In this document: in pieces, positions 20,765 through 35,780 of the stretch
How the letters are laid out: the number at the start of each line of letters is the position of its first letter
How positions within the stretch are numbered: position 1 is the first letter of the stretch
Origin: a bacterium
GTDB lineage: Bacteria > Latescibacterota > Latescibacteria > Latescibacterales > Latescibacteraceae
Length of the DNA: 35,780 nucleotides
Direction: 5' to 3'
Assembly (NCBI GenBank): GCA_021372535.1
Contig: JAJFUH010000187.1
Location: forward strand, 1 to 35,780
Translations under genes and position numbers: made by a program
The notes under the pieces: generated by a model
What the model was told of the DNA's origin: nothing
Databases searched by the model: none
What the model saw: only the letters and a program-made list of their open reading frames with translations

Positions 20765-21181
20765 TTATTTCTTCTCTTCCTGTGCCGGAGCATTCTGAGA
20801 CGGAGTCGTCTCAGAACCGGTTTGCGCATTATCGCCGGCGGCAGGTGTCGACACAGGCATTTCGGTTGTAACCGCCGAGCTTGAAGGAGAAGAAGCCGCT
20901 CCGCTTTCAATAAGAGCCCGCTGAATCGCACTCTGGGAAACACGGCCCGGTTTAACGAAATTGAGCGATATCGATGTCAGCATGAAGAGTATCGCGAACG
21001 CTGTCGTTGCCTTGGCAAGGAACGGCGCAGCTCCTCTGCCGCCGAAAACTCCGCCTGTCATTCCGGATCCGCCGAAGGTTCCCGCCAGTCCGCCACCCTT
21101 GCTCGACTGCAGAAGCACTGATATGACAAGGGCAATACAGACGATAACATGAACTATCAGTATAAGAACATACAGAAACAT
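20765..21181 (-). CDS. secG: Preprotein translocase subunit SecG
   Basis: A 138-aa protein from the ATG at 21181, chosen because GGAAGGTAAGG precedes it and because the longer frame to 21289 adds 36 unrelated residues. Two membrane spans (about 2-22, FLYVLILIVHVIVCIALVI, and 50-70, TTAFAILFMLTSISLNFV) flank the signature LLQSSKGGGLAGTFGGSGMT loop of SecG. SecG helps SecYE and SecA move proteins across the inner membrane. The tail beyond ~80 is a Ser/Thr/Ala/Pro-rich extension ending QEEKK, longer than in E. coli. It lies downstream of tpiA, an association common in bacteria. Confidence 0.94.
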   Translation of the reverse strand: MFLYVLILIVHVIVCIALVISVLLQSSKGGGLAGTFGGSGMTGGVFGGRGAAPFLAKATTAFAILFMLTSISLNFVKPGRVSQSAIQRALIESGAASSPSSSAVTTEMPVSTPAAGDNAQTGSETTPSQNAPAQEEKK

Positions 21182-21316
21182 TATAAACCTTACCTTCCCA
21201 AAACATGTATAATGATTTCTGGTTTCTCTTTTATGGTAGAAAAAGTGTTGACCGGTATTCTCGACCATAGAGTAGCGCTGATAAAACACAAACGATAAAT
21301 CTAAACCTTATGAAAC

Positions 21317-22072
21317 TTACAACGCCGCGCGGATGATGCCTTCGAACGATTCGGCATCGAGAGCAGCCCCACCAATCAGTCCGCCGTCTATATCAGGTTG
21401 CGCAAGAAGTTCGCGGGCATTTCCGGGTTTCATGCTGCCGCCGTACTGAATCCTTGTTTCCGCTGCCGCTTTCTTCCCGAACAAACCCTCAAGCAGTCCC
21501 CTGATAAAGGCGTGTACTTCCTGAGCTTGTTCAACAGTAGCGGTTAGACCGGTGCCGATAGCCCAAACCGGTTCGTACGCTATCACCGTTCCATGAAACT
21601 CATCCGCTCTCAGATTTGTTAATGCACCCTTCACCTGGCGCTCGACTACTTTCCGGGTTATTCCGTTTTCACGCTCTTCCCGCGTTTCACCGACACACAC
21701 AATCGGGGTGATCCCGGCTTTAATCGCAGATTGAACTTTTTTTGCGACTATTTCATCGCTTTCATGAAAGTACGTTCTTCGTTCAGAGTGTCCCAATATA
21801 ACGTATTCACAGCCCAGAGTCAAGAGCATATTGGCCGATATTTCGCCGGTAAATGCACCTTTCTGCTCCCAGTGCATGTTCTGCGCGCCGAGCGCTATAG
21901 TGGTTCCCTTTATACCTTCACCTGCCGCCGCAAGAGAGGTAAAGGGCGGGCAGACTACAATCTCCACGTCCTCTATTCCGGAAACTTTTTCGGCAATCGC
22001 ATGAACCAGCGTTTGAGCCTCACGGTGATTCATGTGCATTTTCCAGTTGCCGGCGATGATGATTTTTCTCAT
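21317..22072 (-). CDS. tpiA: Triosephosphate isomerase
   Basis: A 251-aa TIM barrel interconverting dihydroxyacetone phosphate and glyceraldehyde 3-phosphate. The catalytic residues are all visible: AGNWKMHMN (N/K), ILGHSERRTYFHE (His) and AYEPVWAIGTG (Glu), with the flexible loop 6 and the phosphate-binding YGGSMKPGN and GGLIGGAAL. The length is standard. AAAGGA lies six bases before the ATG. It is separated from pgk by about 97 bp that hold a long palindrome. Confidence 0.97.
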   Translation of the reverse strand: MRKIIIAGNWKMHMNHREAQTLVHAIAEKVSGIEDVEIVVCPPFTSLAAAGEGIKGTTIALGAQNMHWEQKGAFTGEISANMLLTLGCEYVILGHSERRTYFHESDEIVAKKVQSAIKAGITPIVCVGETREERENGITRKVVERQVKGALTNLRADEFHGTVIAYEPVWAIGTGLTATVEQAQEVHAFIRGLLEGLFGKKAAAETRIQYGGSMKPGNARELLAQPDIDGGLIGGAALDAESFEGIIRAAL

Positions 22073-22095
22073 GATAGTCCTTTAGCAGAAAAGTT

Positions 22096-22156
22096 CCACG
22101 AAGGCACAAAGGCATAAAATTGTTTAAATTATAATTTTACCTTCGTGTCTTCGTGG
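22096..22156. repeat. 61-bp near-palindrome between pgk and tpiA (dispersed repeat family)
   Basis: CCACGAAGGCACAAAGG at the left (22096-22112) matches the reverse complement of the right end CCTTCGTGTCTTCGTGG in 15 of 17 positions, and the inner TAAAATT/AATTTTA pairs as well. The right arm is the CTTCGTGTCTTCGTGGTTA wording recurring in diverged form at 10.85 kb (TTGTGTCTTTGTG). It can fold into a long stem in RNA between the pgk and tpiA cistrons. Confidence 0.75.
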
Positions 22157-22169
22157 TTATTTGTTATAT

Positions 22170-23366
22170 TCACCCTCGATTGAGCGCCTGAACTCCCGGA
22201 AGTATTTTCCCTTCGAGCAGTTCAAGGGAAGCACCGCCGCCGGTCGAAATGTGACTCATCCTGTCCTCCATCCCGAATTTGGCGATCGCCGCCGCGGAAT
22301 CACCGCCGCCGATAACGGTAACCGTTCCTTTCGCGGTTGCATCGGCCATAGCCTGCGCTATCGCTTTCGTTCCGTTCGCGAACGTTTCCATCTCAAACAC
22401 ACCCATCGGGCCATTCCACACAACAGTTCCCGCGCCTTTAATTTTTGATGTATAGAGCTCAACGGTTTTCGGCCCGATATCGAGACCTTCCCAGTCTTTC
22501 GGTATGGCATCGGAATCGACATATCGTGTCCTGGCGTCGTTTTCGAATTTATCGGCTATCATGCAGTCGACCGGAAGGAGAAACTCGCAGGACGAAGCTT
22601 TGACCTTCTCCAGGATATCACGGGCCATATCCACTCGTTCGGCCTCCAGAATCGACTTGCCGATCTCGAGTCCCATGGCCTTGTAGAATGTATACGCCAT
22701 CCCTCCGCCGATGAGAAGAGTATCTGCCTTGTCGAGCAGGGTGGTTATCACATCGATCTTGCCGGAAATCTTGACTCCGCCGATAACGGCCACAAAGGGG
22801 CGTTTCGGTTCCTTGACCGCGCTGTCGAGATAATCGATTTCCTTCTTGAGAAGATAACCCGAGGCAACCTCTTTGAGATAACGTGTGATTCCTTCGGTGG
22901 AAGCATGGGCACGGTGCGCAGTACCGAATGCATCGTTCACATACACATCGGCAAGCGATGCGAGTTTTTGTGCAAATTCAGGATCGTTCGCTTCCTCCTC
23001 CTTATGGAAACGGAGATTTTCAAGAAGAACCACATCGCCCGGTTTCATCTCCGAAACCATGGCTTCGACAGCGGAGCCAACACAGTCCGGCGCAAGCTTC
23101 ACCGGCTTGTTGAGATGCCTGCCGAGACTTTTCGCCACCGGCGCGAGGCTCATCTCGGGTACGGGTTTCCCTTTGGGACGTCCCAGATGGCTCATGAGAA
23201 TGAGTTTCCCACCCTTGTCGAGTATGTAGCGTATGGTCGGAAGCGAGGCGACAATGCGCTTTTCATCGGTAATATTCCGGTTCTCGTCGAGGGGAACGTT
23301 AAAATCACAACGGACGATGACCCGTTTGCCCTTGAGATCAATATCGTTTACAGTCTTGATAGCCAT
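22170..23366 (-). CDS. pgk: Phosphoglycerate kinase
   Basis: A 398-aa glycolytic enzyme transferring phosphate from 1,3-bisphosphoglycerate to ADP. Motifs are textbook: VRCDFNVPLDENR at the N-terminus, LMSHLGRPKG, LLENLRFHKEEE, VNDAFGTAHRAHAST, FVAVIGGVKISGKI, NGPMGVFE and GGGDSAAAIAKFG before the C-terminal STGGGASLELLEGK. AGGTGAG lies just before the ATG. It stands third from last in the minus-strand run pfk-fba-gap-pgk-tpiA-secG. A 9-bp perfect hairpin occupies the gap between gap and pgk. Confidence 0.97.
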   Translation of the reverse strand: MAIKTVNDIDLKGKRVIVRCDFNVPLDENRNITDEKRIVASLPTIRYILDKGGKLILMSHLGRPKGKPVPEMSLAPVAKSLGRHLNKPVKLAPDCVGSAVEAMVSEMKPGDVVLLENLRFHKEEEANDPEFAQKLASLADVYVNDAFGTAHRAHASTEGITRYLKEVASGYLLKKEIDYLDSAVKEPKRPFVAVIGGVKISGKIDVITTLLDKADTLLIGGGMAYTFYKAMGLEIGKSILEAERVDMARDILEKVKASSCEFLLPVDCMIADKFENDARTRYVDSDAIPKDWEGLDIGPKTVELYTSKIKGAGTVVWNGPMGVFEMETFANGTKAIAQAMADATAKGTVTVIGGGDSAAAIAKFGMEDRMSHISTGGGASLELLEGKILPGVQALNRG

Positions 23367-23392
23367 TCATCTCACCTCGGTCTGACAAGTAA

Positions 23393-23426
23393 ATCCCGCG
23401 GCTGCTCTCGTAAGCATCCGCGGGAT
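23393..23426. promoter_or_regulatory. Intercistronic hairpin between gap and pgk
   Basis: ATCCCGCGG (23393-23401) pairs perfectly with CCGCGGGAT (23418-23426) around a 16-nt loop. There is no T-tract on the minus strand, so it may act as an mRNA-stabilising or processing stem and not as a terminator. Confidence 0.5.
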
Positions 23427-23450
23427 ACCATTTTACTGTTTACAACGCCC

Positions 23451-24458
23451 TTACTTTGCCATGAGTTTGAAAAGGTCGATGCACCGGTTCGAATAACCCC
23501 ACTCGTTATCGTACCATGAAAATACTTTGACCATGGTGCCTTCCATTACCGAGGTCATTTGGCCGTCAATGATCGACGATGCGGGATTTCCGATAACATC
23601 GCTCGAAACGATCGGATCATCGGTATACTCGAGGATGCCCTTCAACTCGCCATTTGCGGCTGCCTTGAATGCGTTATTCACCTCTTCGATGGTGACCGCA
23701 CGTTTGAGCTCGCACACGCAGTCGGTCAGTGAGGCATCGGGTGTGGGTACGCGGACACTGACGCCGTCCAGTTTCCCCTTGAGCTCGGGAAGAACCTTAC
23801 CGACAGCGCGGGCGGCGCCGGTTGTGGTGGGGATCATGTTGATCGCGCCAGCACGGGCTCTCCGGAGGTCTTTATGAACCTGGTCGAGAATTTTCTGGTC
23901 GTTCGTGTATGAATGGATCGTGGTCATGAATCCCTTGACAATCCCGAACTTCTCGTGGAGAACCTTCGCCATGGGAGCCAGGCTGTTTGTGGTGCACGAT
24001 GCATTCGAAATCATGGTGTCGGCCGAGGTCAGAATGTTGTCGTTCACGCCCATGACAATCACCTTGATCTTGGATTCGCCCTTGCTCTTGGGGGGAACCG
24101 AGAGAAGCACTTTTTTCGCGCCGGCATCGATGTGTTTCTGCAATCCGGCATCATCAGCGAATATACCGGTCGATTCGAGTACCATTGTGGCACCGAGTTT
24201 TCCCCACGGAATATTTGCGGGATCCTTCTCGGAAAATACGAGGACCTTCTTGCCGTTGACAATGATGCCGTCAGCCGCTGCCTCGACAGTACCTTTGAAC
24301 TTGCCCTGTGTCGAATCATATTTCAGCAGATGAGCCATTGTCTTGGTATCCATAAGATCGTTGATACCGACAACCTCAAAGCCGCCATCCGCAATCGCCG
24401 CACGGAAAACGAGCTTGCCGATACGGCCGAAACCATTGATTCCGATTTTGATAGCCAT
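23451..24458 (-). CDS. gap: Glyceraldehyde-3-phosphate dehydrogenase, type I
   Basis: A 335-aa enzyme oxidising glyceraldehyde 3-phosphate with NAD and phosphate. The NAD fold is [15 protein letters not shown], the catalytic cysteine sits in [13 protein letters not shown], the catalytic His in TIHSYTNDQ, and the phosphate loops are [10 protein letters not shown] and [12 protein letters not shown]. The C-terminus has [14 protein letters not shown] near residue 34 (GINDLMD) argues for NAD preference. AAAGGA precedes the ATG. It follows fba by 29 bp. Confidence 0.97.
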
Positions 24459-24487
24459 GGTAAATCCTTTCTTTCTTCGTGTGAGGA

Positions 24488-25495
24488 TTACAACAAACCG
24501 CTCTTCTTGTAAAAGTCAATCATATCATTGAGCGAAACCGGTTTGAAATCTCCGGCATGCCCCGCAGTGCCGAGATCGCGCATTTTCTGAGCAACGAGTT
24601 TTGTGAGTGCATCACGGGCCGGTTTCATATAATCGCGGGGATCGAACTTATCGGGAGTTTCCACAAAGACTTTACGGATAGCACCCGTAATCGCAATACG
24701 GCCGTCGGTGTCGATATTCACCTTCCGCACACCGAAGGGTATGGCCGACTGAATGGCGCTCATGGGAACGCCCTTTGCCTGGGGCATTTTGCCGCCATAT
24801 TTATTGACAACCGCCACCAGATCTTCCGGCACGCTCGACGAGCCGTGCATAACGAGCGGGGTCTCCGGTATCCGTCTGTGTATTTCCTGTACGATATCGA
24901 TCGCAAGTTTCGGTTCGGCTTTGAATTTGTAAGCGCCATGGGAAGTACCGATTGCAACCGCCAGAGCATCGACCTTCGTTTTCTTGACAAAATCAACTGC
25001 CTGGTCGGGATCGGTCAGGTGGACTTTCCCCGATCCGACGCCGTCCTCGATACCACCGAGTGTGCCGAGCTCCGCTTCCACTGTTACTCCGAGGGGGTGG
25101 GCATATTCGATAACACTCATGGTCACCGCTAAATTTTCCTCGTAGGTTGTCGGAGTTTTACTGTCCTCCTTGAGGGAACCGTCTATCATGACCGATGTGA
25201 ATCCGAGCGCAATCGCCTGCTTGCAGGTATCCAGACTGTTGCCATGATCGAGATGCATGGCGATGGGTATGTCCGGATTTTCTTCCGCCGCTGCCAGCAT
25301 GAGGTGTTTCAGGTAGGTGAAATTCGAGTACTTGAGCGCCCCGCGGGAAGCCTGTATGATAACCGGTGACCGGGTTTCCTGCGCAGCAGCCATGATAGCC
25401 TGTATCTGCTCCATGTTATTGACATTAAATGCGCCGACAGCGTAATTTCCCTTTGCCGCTTCCAGGAGGAGCTGCCGCATCGGAACTAATGGCAT
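24488..25495 (-). CDS. fba: Class II fructose-bisphosphate aldolase
   Basis: A 335-aa zinc-dependent aldolase cleaving fructose 1,6-bisphosphate. Visible are [17 protein letters not shown], the zinc and active-site segment [31 protein letters not shown] (zinc Glu), [19 protein letters not shown] and [11 protein letters not shown]. The length agrees with the Fba/GatY-like class IIB group. AAAGG precedes the start. It is second in the glycolytic run, with a 198-bp gap from pfk that carries an inverted repeat. Confidence 0.96.
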
Positions 25496-25570
25496 GGGAG
25501 TACCTTTCTCAATCGTGAAAGTGCGTTATAATAAAATCCCGGTGAAAACACTTTATGCGTGGATATCAGC

Positions 25571-25632
25571 TGTCAAGGATCGGCACGAATTCCCGATTAA
25601 TAATTCGGGGACGGATTTACATGCCCTTGACA
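25571..25632. repeat. Nested inverted repeat between pfk and fba
   Basis: TGTCAAGG (25571-25578) is complementary to CCTTGACA (25625-25632), and an inner CCCGA/TCGGG pair (25592-25596 with 25605-25609) forms a second stem. The wording AATTCCCGATTAATAATTCGGGG suggests a dispersed palindrome, not a terminator; no T-tract follows. Confidence 0.6.
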
Positions 25633-25693
25633 GCAATAAAAACCACATATTTCATAATCGGGCGCATGGAAAAGATACTTTTTCATCGCCCTC

Positions 25694-26740
25694 TTAACTG
25701 AAAAACAGCTTTGCCGTTTCATATTTAGTCTTATCGACAATCTTCAGCGATCCTACCGCATCCTCGAGCGATACCGCTTTCATCTCTCCGCCTTTGAGCG
25801 CAGCCATCATGCCGAATTTGCCATCGTCTATCATTTTCACAACATGAACACCGAGCCGGGTCCCGAGAACACGGTCAAATGCCGTAGGGCTTCCCCCGCG
25901 CTGGAGATGACCGAGCACGAGCGATCGGGTTTCGAAGCCTGTTTCATATTCTATCGCATTGGCGAGCGCCTCGCCGATACCTTTACCCGTGCCGAGCTGA
26001 ACATGGCCGAATGCATCGAGCTGTGATGAATGGGCCACATCTTTCATGAGATCGGGTATCACCGCGCCTTCCGCAACCGCGATTATTGCCCACCGCTCAC
26101 CCGATTCATACCGGCGTTTTGCCATCGCGACAATCTCGCCAACTTTGACCTCGACCTCGGGAATCAGGATCATATGAGCGCCCCCGGCTATACCGCCATG
26201 CAGCGCAATCCAGCCCGCGTGACGGCCCATGATCTCGACCACCATGACACGATGGTGGCTTTCGGTGGTCGTTCTGAGCATCTCGAGTAAATCACAGACA
26301 CGGTTGATAGCCGTATCGAAACCAAAGGTGTAATCGGTCGCGTTGACATCGTTGTCGATCGTCTTCGGAACTCCGAGAACGCTGGCGCCGGCCTTGTACA
26401 GCTTCAGCGCAACACCGAGCGTATCCTCGCCACCCGATGCCACAAGCGCATAAATACCGAGTTCCTCGAGGTTCTTTTTCGCTATCTCGAAACCGTTCTC
26501 TATCTTCGCGACATTGGTTCTCGACGAACCGAGAATGGTGCCGCCGAGAAGATGAATGTCCTCGACATCCTTCAGCGACAACGTACGATATTTCTTGTCG
26601 AGAAGCCCGCGCCAGCCCTCCTCGAAACCTATGACTTCATATCCCGATTTTATTCCCTTGACAGTTACCGCCCGTATAACAGCATTCAGACCTGGTGCAT
26701 CCCCGCCACCCGTTAAAATACCGATTCGCTTCTCTGCCAT
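25694..26740 (-). CDS. 6-phosphofructokinase, probably pyrophosphate-dependent
   Basis: A 348-aa PfkA-family enzyme phosphorylating fructose 6-phosphate. Start ATG at 26740 follows GGAG by six bases; the frame extends two codons to a TTG. Motifs: GILTGGGDAPGLNAVIR, GGED (103-106) in place of the ATP-type GGDG, PKTIDNDV with Lys126, and MGRHAGWIALHGG. At the positions equivalent to E. coli Gly104 and Gly124, this protein has Asp106 and Lys126, the pair known to mark pyrophosphate users. So PPi is the predicted donor, although mixed-specificity members exist. It opens the glycolytic run, so a reversible, PPi-saving step heads the pathway. Confidence 0.9.
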   Translation of the reverse strand: MAEKRIGILTGGGDAPGLNAVIRAVTVKGIKSGYEVIGFEEGWRGLLDKKYRTLSLKDVEDIHLLGGTILGSSRTNVAKIENGFEIAKKNLEELGIYALVASGGEDTLGVALKLYKAGASVLGVPKTIDNDVNATDYTFGFDTAINRVCDLLEMLRTTTESHHRVMVVEIMGRHAGWIALHGGIAGGAHMILIPEVEVKVGEIVAMAKRRYESGERWAIIAVAEGAVIPDLMKDVAHSSQLDAFGHVQLGTGKGIGEALANAIEYETGFETRSLVLGHLQRGGSPTAFDRVLGTRLGVHVVKMIDDGKFGMMAALKGGEMKAVSLEDAVGSLKIVDKTKYETAKLFFS

Positions 26741-27262
26741 ATTCAACTCCGTAAAAATACAGTTACTGGTTTATAAAAACTGGTTTATAGTTTCTGGTTG
26801 TATTTACATCCATGTAAAGACAGAGACTCATGGAAATATTAACAACAATCCATATACAATTCACTATTCCTTTATAGACTTAGAAAGATAAGAAAATAAT
26901 TATGTAAAGTCAAGGGAGAGATATGAGTTTACTACCCTCAATTTTTTAAAAACAAGGCAGAAGGCACAAGGCAGAAGGCACAAGGGGAAAGACAAGGCAC
27001 TGAGGTACAAAAGGAAAGAGTCTCGACAGGGACTTTTCGGGAATAGACCGGTATTTTAATGCCGGTCGCCATTAAATACTGAACGTATTTATCTTGACAA
27101 GGGAATAAATTTTATTTTATTGATACTCACGGCTAACAGCCCGAAAATTCATAGGAAATAAAAAGGTGGAAACGAGAAGCAACGGTAACTTATACGCGTT
27201 TATATATTTTATTATGTGATGATTAGATAATCATTCTTGGATTGACTCAAAGGAATGAAAAA
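26741..27262. other. 522-bp intergenic region between pfk and the Mrr gene
   Basis: The start of accessory block 2. It contains the AAGGCACAAGG-type repeat (26953-27000), a 6-bp GACCGG/CCGGTC hairpin near 27047-27068, and a possible promoter TTGACA (27094-27099) with a poor -10 17 bp later, pointing to the Mrr gene. No gene is supported. Confidence 0.45.
26961..26999 (+). repeat. Left inverted-repeat arm of accessory block 2
   Basis: A short-period tract of AAGGCA(C/G)AAG units. It aligns with the reverse complement of 29223-29262 over about 40 bp with two mismatches and one single-base indel, sharing GGGGAAAGACAAGGCA exactly. Confidence 0.75.
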
Positions 27263-34572: not shown

Positions 34573-35130
34573 TTATGTAAATATACTGATGAAAATAATT
34601 TTTGATTTTTTTTCGGCCTTGAGCCTGTGACGGTATGAGCCGTGAAAATAAACCGACTCCCCCTCATCGAGCCTGATAACCTTGTCTTCAATTTCCACAG
34701 TTATATTCCCTGACAGTACATGGGCAAACTCATTGCCGTCAAACGAGTCATGCGGCGCGGTCGTCATCCCTTCATCCATCTCCGTGATGTAAATTGATAC
34801 GCGCTTATCCATCATAATCGGGGCAAAATCATGCAGAGTTACACCCTCGGCGGAAATGAGCTTCTGTTTGTTTTTTTCAATTTTGAAGATACGGGGTTCG
34901 GCCACATCCTCGATAAGATAGGTCAGTGTGGTATTGAGGGCTTTTGCAATTTCGAGTATCGTGCTTAGTTTAGGGCTGTATATGCCCTTTTCTATATTCG
35001 ATATGGTTACTGAACTAACACTGGTTTTTTTACTGAGATCCTCTATGGACATGTTGCGGGAAAGTCTGAGGGTGTTGATTCTGCGTCCGACTACATTGAT
35101 GCGTTTCGTAAACGTGCTTTCTTTGGACAT
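34573..35130 (-). CDS. XRE-family regulator with C-terminal cupin domain
   Basis: A 185-aa transcription factor. Residues ~15-70 are a lambda-type HTH (GRRINTLRLSRNMSIEDLSKKTSVSSVTISNIEKG, then PKLSTILEIAKALNTTL). Residues ~100-185 form a single cupin with TTAPHDSFDGNEFAHVLSGN, LDEGESVYF and the HRL segment. XRE-cupin regulators (PuuR/HipB-like) usually bind a small metabolite through the cupin and control its own catabolic operon, which fits the downstream oxidoreductases and aminotransferase. GGGAGA precedes the ATG. It leaves in the minus direction, divergent from the structured leader at the window edge. Confidence 0.87.
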   Translation of the reverse strand: MSKESTFTKRINVVGRRINTLRLSRNMSIEDLSKKTSVSSVTISNIEKGIYSPKLSTILEIAKALNTTLTYLIEDVAEPRIFKIEKNKQKLISAEGVTLHDFAPIMMDKRVSIYITEMDEGMTTAPHDSFDGNEFAHVLSGNITVEIEDKVIRLDEGESVYFHGSYRHRLKAEKKSKIIFISIFT

Positions 35131-35587
35131 TTCATCATCTCCCTCTGTATTTATTCATGATATGCACAACAGATTTTCTTGACGAAGAGACAATCATTGT
35201 TTCAGCTTGAACTCCCTCGGATAAACAGTCAAAATCATGAAGAAAATCCCGGATTGCTAAACAGAATCAGGCTGCACGGTAAACCGATTATGTGAGGGCA
35301 GGATAAAAAATGAATATTCCACCGAAATAGTGAGCAATTCCATTATTGAACTCAGCATCTTAAAATAATGAAATTATTCCTCATGAGTCAAGCTTTTTTG
35401 GAGAGTCCAAAGGAATGTTTGCGAATGCTCACTTTTTTAAAAAAAACTTTATAAGAAATCTTTAGTGTTTATTTCATTCCGTACAAACAAAAAAGGTGAT
35501 GAAAACTTTTTTATTGCTCTAAAATGGGGGAGATGGCCTGAAAAAAATATCTTGCACCGATCATTTCAAATCGTTATATTATTCACA
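35131..35587. other. AT-rich divergent intergenic region with promoters
   Basis: No gene is seen in this AT-rich stretch between the XRE-cupin start and the transcription start of the right-edge gene. It must carry the promoter of the minus-strand operon, for which no clear -35/-10 was picked. The + strand promoter is at 35552-35580. Confidence 0.45.
35552..35580 (+). promoter_or_regulatory. Sigma70-like promoter of the right-edge leader and gene
   Basis: TTGCAC (35552-35557), an exact 17-bp spacer, and TATATT (35575-35580). Transcription would begin near 35587, giving a leader of about 155-160 nt before the start codon. Confidence 0.65.
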
Positions 35588-35699
35588 AATTGATGTCCCG
35601 CGGTGAAGGGCAACCTGATACCCAGGGGCTGTAAATACTGCATATCCTGAGGCAGCCGGTTATAAAAACCGGTCCCGAGGGGTTGCCTGTTTTTATTAG
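35588..35699 (+). ncRNA. Structured leader RNA, probable riboswitch or attenuator of unidentified class
   Basis: Outer stem GGCAACC (35609-35615) with GGTTGCC (35681-35687). Inside it, CCGGTT (35656-35661) pairs with AACCGG (35667-35672), and GGCTG (35627-35631) can pair with CAGCC (35653-35657), partly in competition. GGGGTT (35679-35684), and also GGGGCT (35625-35630), can pair with AGCCCC (35698-35703), the left side of the terminator, so a classical antiterminator is available. I compared it with the conserved cores of TPP, c-di-GMP, glycine, lysine, ZTP, fluoride, cobalamin and guanidine riboswitches from memory and found no convincing match. Confidence 0.6.
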
Positions 35700-35728
35700 C
35701 CCCGGCGTGTGTTTGCCGGGTTTTTTTT
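35700..35728 (+). terminator. Intrinsic terminator just upstream of the ribosome binding site
   Basis: CCCGGC (35701-35706) pairs with GCCGGG (35715-35720) around an 8-nt loop, then eight Ts (35721-35728). It lies only about 5 bp before the AAGGGG Shine-Dalgarno, the placement expected of a conditional terminator. Confidence 0.85.
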
Positions 35729-35745
35729 GTTTAAGGGGTAATGAC

Positions 35746-35780
35746 ATGGAAAATTCTGAAAAGAAGGTTGCGGTAATCAG
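35746..35780 (+). CDS. 5' end of a gene cut by the window, function unknown
   Basis: ATG at 35746 with AAGGGG (35733-35738) seven bases upstream. The 11 visible codons read MENSEKKVAVI, like the first strand of a nucleotide-binding fold, but too short to identify. An ATG at 35741 in another frame stops after 11 codons and is rejected. Expression would be governed by the structured leader just ahead. Confidence 0.6.
   Translation, partial: MENSEKKVAVI

Follow-up and report, generated by a model that had tools for sequence, protein, structure and literature searches.

A predicted RNA switch and its hairpin family upstream of TM1266-like genes and hydE, hydF and hydG

The guanidine-II (mini-ykkC) riboswitch carries a short motif in two copies, the second of which is near the ribosome binding site (RBS). 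CsrA/RsmA is a dimeric small protein that acts on two RNA sites, one of them over the Shine-Dalgarno. The leader described here also resembles transcription-terminating riboswitches, in that it places a sensor hairpin in a 5' UTR, followed by an antiterminator and a terminator that are mutually exclusive. It precedes a gene of the TM1266 family, for which, to our knowledge, no activity is known so far and whose members are annotated merely as 'putative regulator'.

The leader of the window and of a same-genus relative

The window analyzed was one entire contig (G000:C187; 35,780 bases) of a MAG, and the parts of its leader are listed in Table 1. Elsewhere in the window, a glycolytic cluster (pfk, fba, gapdh, pgk, tpi, secG) occupies 20765-26746 on the minus strand; the order from pfk to tpi is the same in G001, whose contig ends there.

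Table 1. Features of the leader and its flanks in the window (bits refer to covariance model R2, see text)
Feature	Coordinates	Strand	Evidence or remark
Sigma-70-like promoter TTGCAC-N17-TATATT	35552..35580	+	TTGCAC 35552-35557, TATATT 35575-35580; same hexamers and spacing in G001
Conserved pseudo-dyadic hairpin	35593..35631	+	R2 match, 39.5 bits; covariation over 59 members
P1 stem of the hairpin	35595-35599 / 35625-35629	+	
Lower loop of the hairpin, GC/CA	between P1 and helix A	+	
Helix A, GGUG/UACC	35602-35605 / 35619-35622	+	
Upper tandem-GA loop, AA/GA	35606-35607 / 35617-35618	+	
Helix B, GGG/CCU	35608-35610 / 35614-35616	+	
Antiterminator, GGGGCU 35625-35630 with AGCCCC 35698-35703	35625..35703	+	Three compensatory pairs relative to G001; folds at the right transcript length
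P2 arm, enclosed by the antiterminator	35633..35694	+	One compensatory pair, A-U/G-C, in G001
Intrinsic terminator, CCCGGC-loop-GCCGGG plus U8	35701..35728 (stem-loop 35701-35720 + 8 T)	+	Counterpart in G001
Shine-Dalgarno AAGGGG	35733..35738	+	Sequence
TM1266-like gene, first codons (MENSEKKVAVIS...)	35746..35780	+	ATG at 35746; cut after 35 nt by the contig end at 35780
XRE-cupin regulator gene, divergent	34573..35130	-	Neighbor also kept in G001

G001 is a Latescibacterota genome of the same genus, and its leader is 72% identical to that of the window. At this locus (G001:C233; L025/L026), the divergent XRE-cupin gene has a counterpart with 77% identity, next to which come the shared leader and a complete gene of 83 aa; the promoter (TTGCAT-N17-TATATT), 5' hairpin, antiterminator and terminator are all retained. 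The 83-aa protein is TM1266-like (PF21699, 78 bits; TIGR03959, 84.8 bits with a cut-off of 60.8). The XRE-cupin gene is kept in G003 but the leader is absent there, and nothing in the analysis links this gene to the switch.

The original prediction, made from the sequence of the window, had described a promoter, a folded leader, and an intrinsic terminator followed directly by a Shine-Dalgarno. All three were confirmed: the promoter hexamers and spacing are kept in G001, the leader folds better than shuffled sequences (z = -2.9), and the terminator is followed by the Shine-Dalgarno and the ATG. Transcription would start near 35587, and the conserved element begins near 35593. Reading the leader showed no leader peptide whose regulatory codons overlap the switch.

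The predicted pairing of GGGGCU with the left arm of the terminator is upheld by the relative, where GGGGCU/AGCCCC is replaced by GGGAUC/GAUCCC, with three compensatory pairs. The partner of this strand overlaps the left arm of the terminator, and the strand itself is also the 3' side of P1; because it serves both pairings, P1 and the antiterminator are mutually exclusive. Two of the changes in the antiterminator strand fall in P1, where U.G becomes U-A and G-C becomes G.U, and P1 survives with its other side unchanged. This dual constraint on one strand is what a two-state switch would predict. When the growing transcript was folded, both genomes gave P1, then the antiterminator, and then P1 plus the terminator.

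The mutually exclusive states proposed earlier thus stand for P1 and the antiterminator, both kept in G001, and fall for the outer stem that had been named as the competing partner. That stem would pair 35609-35615 (GGCAACC) with 35681-35687, and we rejected it on the orthologue, where one side alone has changed and A faces C at a mismatch. GGCAACC forms the tip of the hairpin that is conserved, and GGGGUU (35680-35684) closes the P2 arm instead.

The operon that follows TM1266 in G001 encodes a purple-acid-phosphatase-like protein, a TonB receptor of the heme/siderophore type and a HydE-like radical SAM protein, and on a small contig of the window's own genome the TonB gene and the HydE-like gene keep this order. 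Neither G000 nor G001, both incomplete MAGs, yielded a HydF; generic GTPases were the only hits. A part in [FeFe]-hydrogenase assembly is therefore unlikely for the TM1266 and HydE-like genes of these genomes. The arrangement of TM1266, secreted phosphoesterase, TonB receptor and HydE-like genes (L026:2289-8017 in G001; L040, G000:C191) would imply that TM1266 and a HydE paralogue have some other, unexplained role. In G001, a rubrerythrin-like gene (L029; G001:C318) has directly downstream of it a further TM1266-like gene, which scores a weak 22 bits.

A hairpin family before TM1266 and hyd maturation genes

A covariance model of the two Latescibacterota leaders (R1) was run unfiltered over 29 TM1266 loci of other phyla. 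The matches were weak, about ten of them lay directly upstream of TM1266 on the sense strand, and a common hairpin was recognized on reading the matched leaders. The same hairpin or its half-sites occur in other phyla at most of the TM1266 genes inspected. An alignment of ten leaders had 90.8% of its pair cells formed and a covariation of 0.476, against 0.307 in shuffled alignments (0/500). From this alignment of sequences upstream of TM1266 a second model (R2) was built.

R2 matched 65 of the 103 Thermotogota genomes, one of them probably by chance; its training set included two of these 65 genomes only. We take the phylum of G113 to be Thermotogota because its TM1266 is nearly identical to the sequence of the T. 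maritima structure. Among 50 inspected matches, 35 were directly before TM1266, nine before HydF-type GTPases, two before HydG and one before HydE; one preceded a HydE-like/TM1266/HydG operon (L119), one a transporter gene behind an apparent terminator, and one was due to chance. Curated models confirmed one HydF, both HydG and the HydE downstream of the motif, and the remaining HydF calls come from sequence reading. No motif was seen at the TM1266 genes of L043, L044, L052 and L057, perhaps as these genes lie inside operons.

Several matches were set aside. A pattern match in G034 (L032) falls within an ORF and lacks the context of a leader, and an R1 match in G204 (L037) without leader features was taken as chance; G204 does carry a real R2 element, at TM1266. 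R2 matches with E of 0.003-0.02 in other genomes, and the one in G409, were also taken as chance. Two of these weak matches (G205 and G280) fall in TM1266 genomes, that of G280 upstream of TM1266.

Two further observations concern the reach of the motif. Downstream of a 35-bit copy in G402 (L113:331-470) come a short ORF, a strong hairpin and the gene of an ABC transporter substrate-binding protein, a possible extra regulon member linked to transport. A divergent form, CGC-AAGG..CCGA-GCG, stands before the terminator in the TM1266 leaders of L045, L046 and L048; these forms are outside the 59-member alignment.

The consensus of the hairpin is pseudo-dyadic, with C-U-G-A-N4-R-A-G-G on both strands. 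Two tandem G.A/A.R internal loops, each flanked by a U.G wobble, are related by a dyad around a 4-bp helix. A kink-turn reading of the tandem GA was rejected, as the loops are 2x2 and have no 3-nt bulge. In the 59-member alignment, whose sequences are related and whose fitting to the model biases it in the model's favor, 94.6% of the pair cells are formed, 67 cells are changed on both sides (22.6 in shuffled alignments, 0/500), the covariation score is 0.336 against 0.208, and slid controls pair at most 62%. From this alignment RNAalifold gave three pairs for helix B: G.U, G-C and one that is G-C in 31 sequences and A-U in 23. The terminal loop varies freely in both sequence and length, and the internal-loop bases are nearly invariant. 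The window has a second CUGA/GAGG half-site in the P2 arm (35646-35652 with 35674-35680, CCUGAGG/CCCGAGG), a weak R2 match of 16.8 bits.

The switching arrangement recurs in the family. The 3' strand of P1 is complementary to a downstream segment that itself pairs further downstream in 46 of the 59 members, as in GGGAGGGGAAA / AUUCCCCUUCCU, where the terminator is built on AUUCCCCUUCCU; HydF leaders work alike and use a terminator. Where the one-hairpin form is missing, five TM1266 leaders have a half-site upstream and another, CCA-RAGG-loop-CUGA-UGG, that covers the Shine-Dalgarno and AUG. The two half-site types coincide in 8 of 30 TM1266 leaders (0.07 expected), five of which have this cover of the Shine-Dalgarno and AUG. 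In the arrangements read, the formed motif would be the OFF state.

Motif and TM1266 go together in Thermotogota: 64 of the 103 genomes have both, three have TM1266 without a detected motif, one has the probable chance match and 35 have neither (Fisher p = 7.5e-23), so that all 64 credible motif genomes encode TM1266. Across 386 diverse genomes every R2 match of at least 28 bits was in a TM1266 genome, a comparison biased by the training of R2 on TM1266 leaders, most matches being training sequences; the match in G189 is a non-training one, and the TM1266 copy of G000 is the cut one. The element thus lies upstream of TM1266 and co-occurs with it, as an autogenous leader would, though the presence of hyd maturation genes confounds this co-occurrence. 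In the window's genus, motif and TM1266 persist where HydF was not found.

The search of Rfam 15 revealed no family above the gathering threshold, either in the window or, across 35 related loci, at the motif; known riboswitch classes gave chance-level matches alone, below that threshold, and were discarded. Phage and plasmid collections gave no match, and we found no description of the element in a literature search that covered mainly journals open without subscription. Covariation, conservation across phyla and the negative Rfam scans make it well supported, at the level of sequence, that the leader of the window is a real transcription attenuator with a competing antiterminator. It has a conserved structured 5' sensor and a mutually exclusive expression platform, as riboswitch-type leaders do. 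Of the earlier proposal of a riboswitch or attenuator of unassigned class, the attenuator stands and matches no Rfam class, and direct sensing of a small molecule, as in a riboswitch, is a possibility. The hairpin is, by prediction, a widespread and so far undescribed regulatory RNA family before TM1266, hydE, hydF and hydG, which suggests that bacteria control [FeFe]-hydrogenase assembly by an RNA switch.

Candidate ligands of the hairpin

Our main reading, to which we give a probability of roughly 0.55, is that the leader is a cis-acting transcription-terminating switch used regulon-wide for TM1266 and the hyd maturation genes, with a hairpin that would be bound by a trans-acting factor, most likely TM1266. 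The promoter-proximal P1 hairpin would present two tandem-G.A half-sites in dyad symmetry, and the 3' strand of P1 could alternatively pair, as antiterminator, with the left arm of the terminator. Formation of P1 would let the terminator form and turn the operon OFF. A dimeric factor may bind the CUGA/RAGG half-sites, hold P1 closed and repress; if it is TM1266, it would feed back on its own operon and repress hydE/F/G. Where a member lacks a terminator, its half-sites cover the Shine-Dalgarno and start codon, and binding would block translation.

We favor a protein-bound leader because the hairpin has dyad symmetry and co-occurs with TM1266, and a symmetric small protein meeting a dyadic RNA seems the simplest reading. 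The PDB relative of the TM1266-like protein, 2NZC, is a four-chain entry. The AlphaFold model of TM1266 has a beta-alpha-beta-beta-alpha-beta fold (pLDDT 87.7), and its nearest folds are 2NZC and then, among others, the tetrameric metal-sensing (C-terminal) domain of NikR and ACT domains. TM1266 lacks the DNA-binding part of NikR and has conserved Arg/Lys at four sites. Against binding by TM1266 stand the half-sites of the window's genus, where the upper one is canonical and the lower one degenerate (GC/CA), and the loss of one conserved Lys in the TM1266 of G001. More tentatively, and at slightly less than even odds, the elements may form a phylum-spanning post-transcriptional regulon in which NikR-C/ACT-like TM1266, as an RNA-binding dimer, recognizes the pseudo-dyadic tandem-G.A duplex and shuts off [FeFe]-hydrogenase cofactor assembly, together with the Latescibacterota TonB/HydE-like operon, at termination and translation.

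The main rival, a true riboswitch, fits the same anatomy: the tandem-G.A loops would bind a small molecule or metal (e.g., an H-cluster precursor, Fe or a HydE-related metabolite), close P1 and terminate transcription with no protein involved. Nearly invariant internal loops beside a free hairpin loop would suit a ligand pocket of this kind, as would an element that precedes several genes of one pathway and acts via termination and RBS occlusion, and the G001 operon encodes both a TonB receptor and an enzyme resembling HydE. However, the core is very small, its dyad symmetry suits a dimeric protein, TM1266 is present in all the motif genomes scored, and the motif stays with TM1266 where HydF was not found; we hold the riboswitch to be possible rather than probable.

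It is improbable that another host RNA-binding protein binds the element and TM1266 is merely a member of the regulon. TM1266 has no recognized RNA-binding domain and the co-occurrence would fit any regulator that tracks the hyd genes, but no other shared regulator happened to come to light. Minimum-energy structures combine P1 and the terminator without any factor, as expected of a constitutive terminator with secondary structure and no regulated switching; yet the substitutions keep both mutually exclusive partners and the unpaired internal-loop bases are conserved across phyla, which leaves this reading very little credit.

With its defined half-sites, the conserved element allows direct tests in Thermotoga of how hydE/F/G are regulated and what TM1266 does. 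Binding by TM1266 would be a new RNA-binding role for the ACT/NikR-like fold; if TM1266 does not bind, the element would be a new riboswitch class, possibly one that senses a hydrogenase-cofactor intermediate or a metal.

Compared with transcription-terminating riboswitches, the leader matches no known class, and its sensor is a 40-nt dyadic hairpin. It shares with guanidine-II the two copies of a short motif, the second near the RBS, and differs in that there is no Rfam match at the motif and the halves are tandem-GA internal loops, often within one hairpin. The proposed dimer on two sites, one over the Shine-Dalgarno, recalls repression of the CsrA/RsmA type, whereas the sites here are structured CUGA/RAGG internal loops and not GGA hairpin loops, and the proposed protein is ACT/NikR-C-like. 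Ribosomal-protein autogenous leaders, such as the L10 leader (RF00557), are likewise protein-bound and upstream of their own gene, as proposed here; the match of the L10 leader to that of the window is 20.4 bits, against a threshold of 44 bits.
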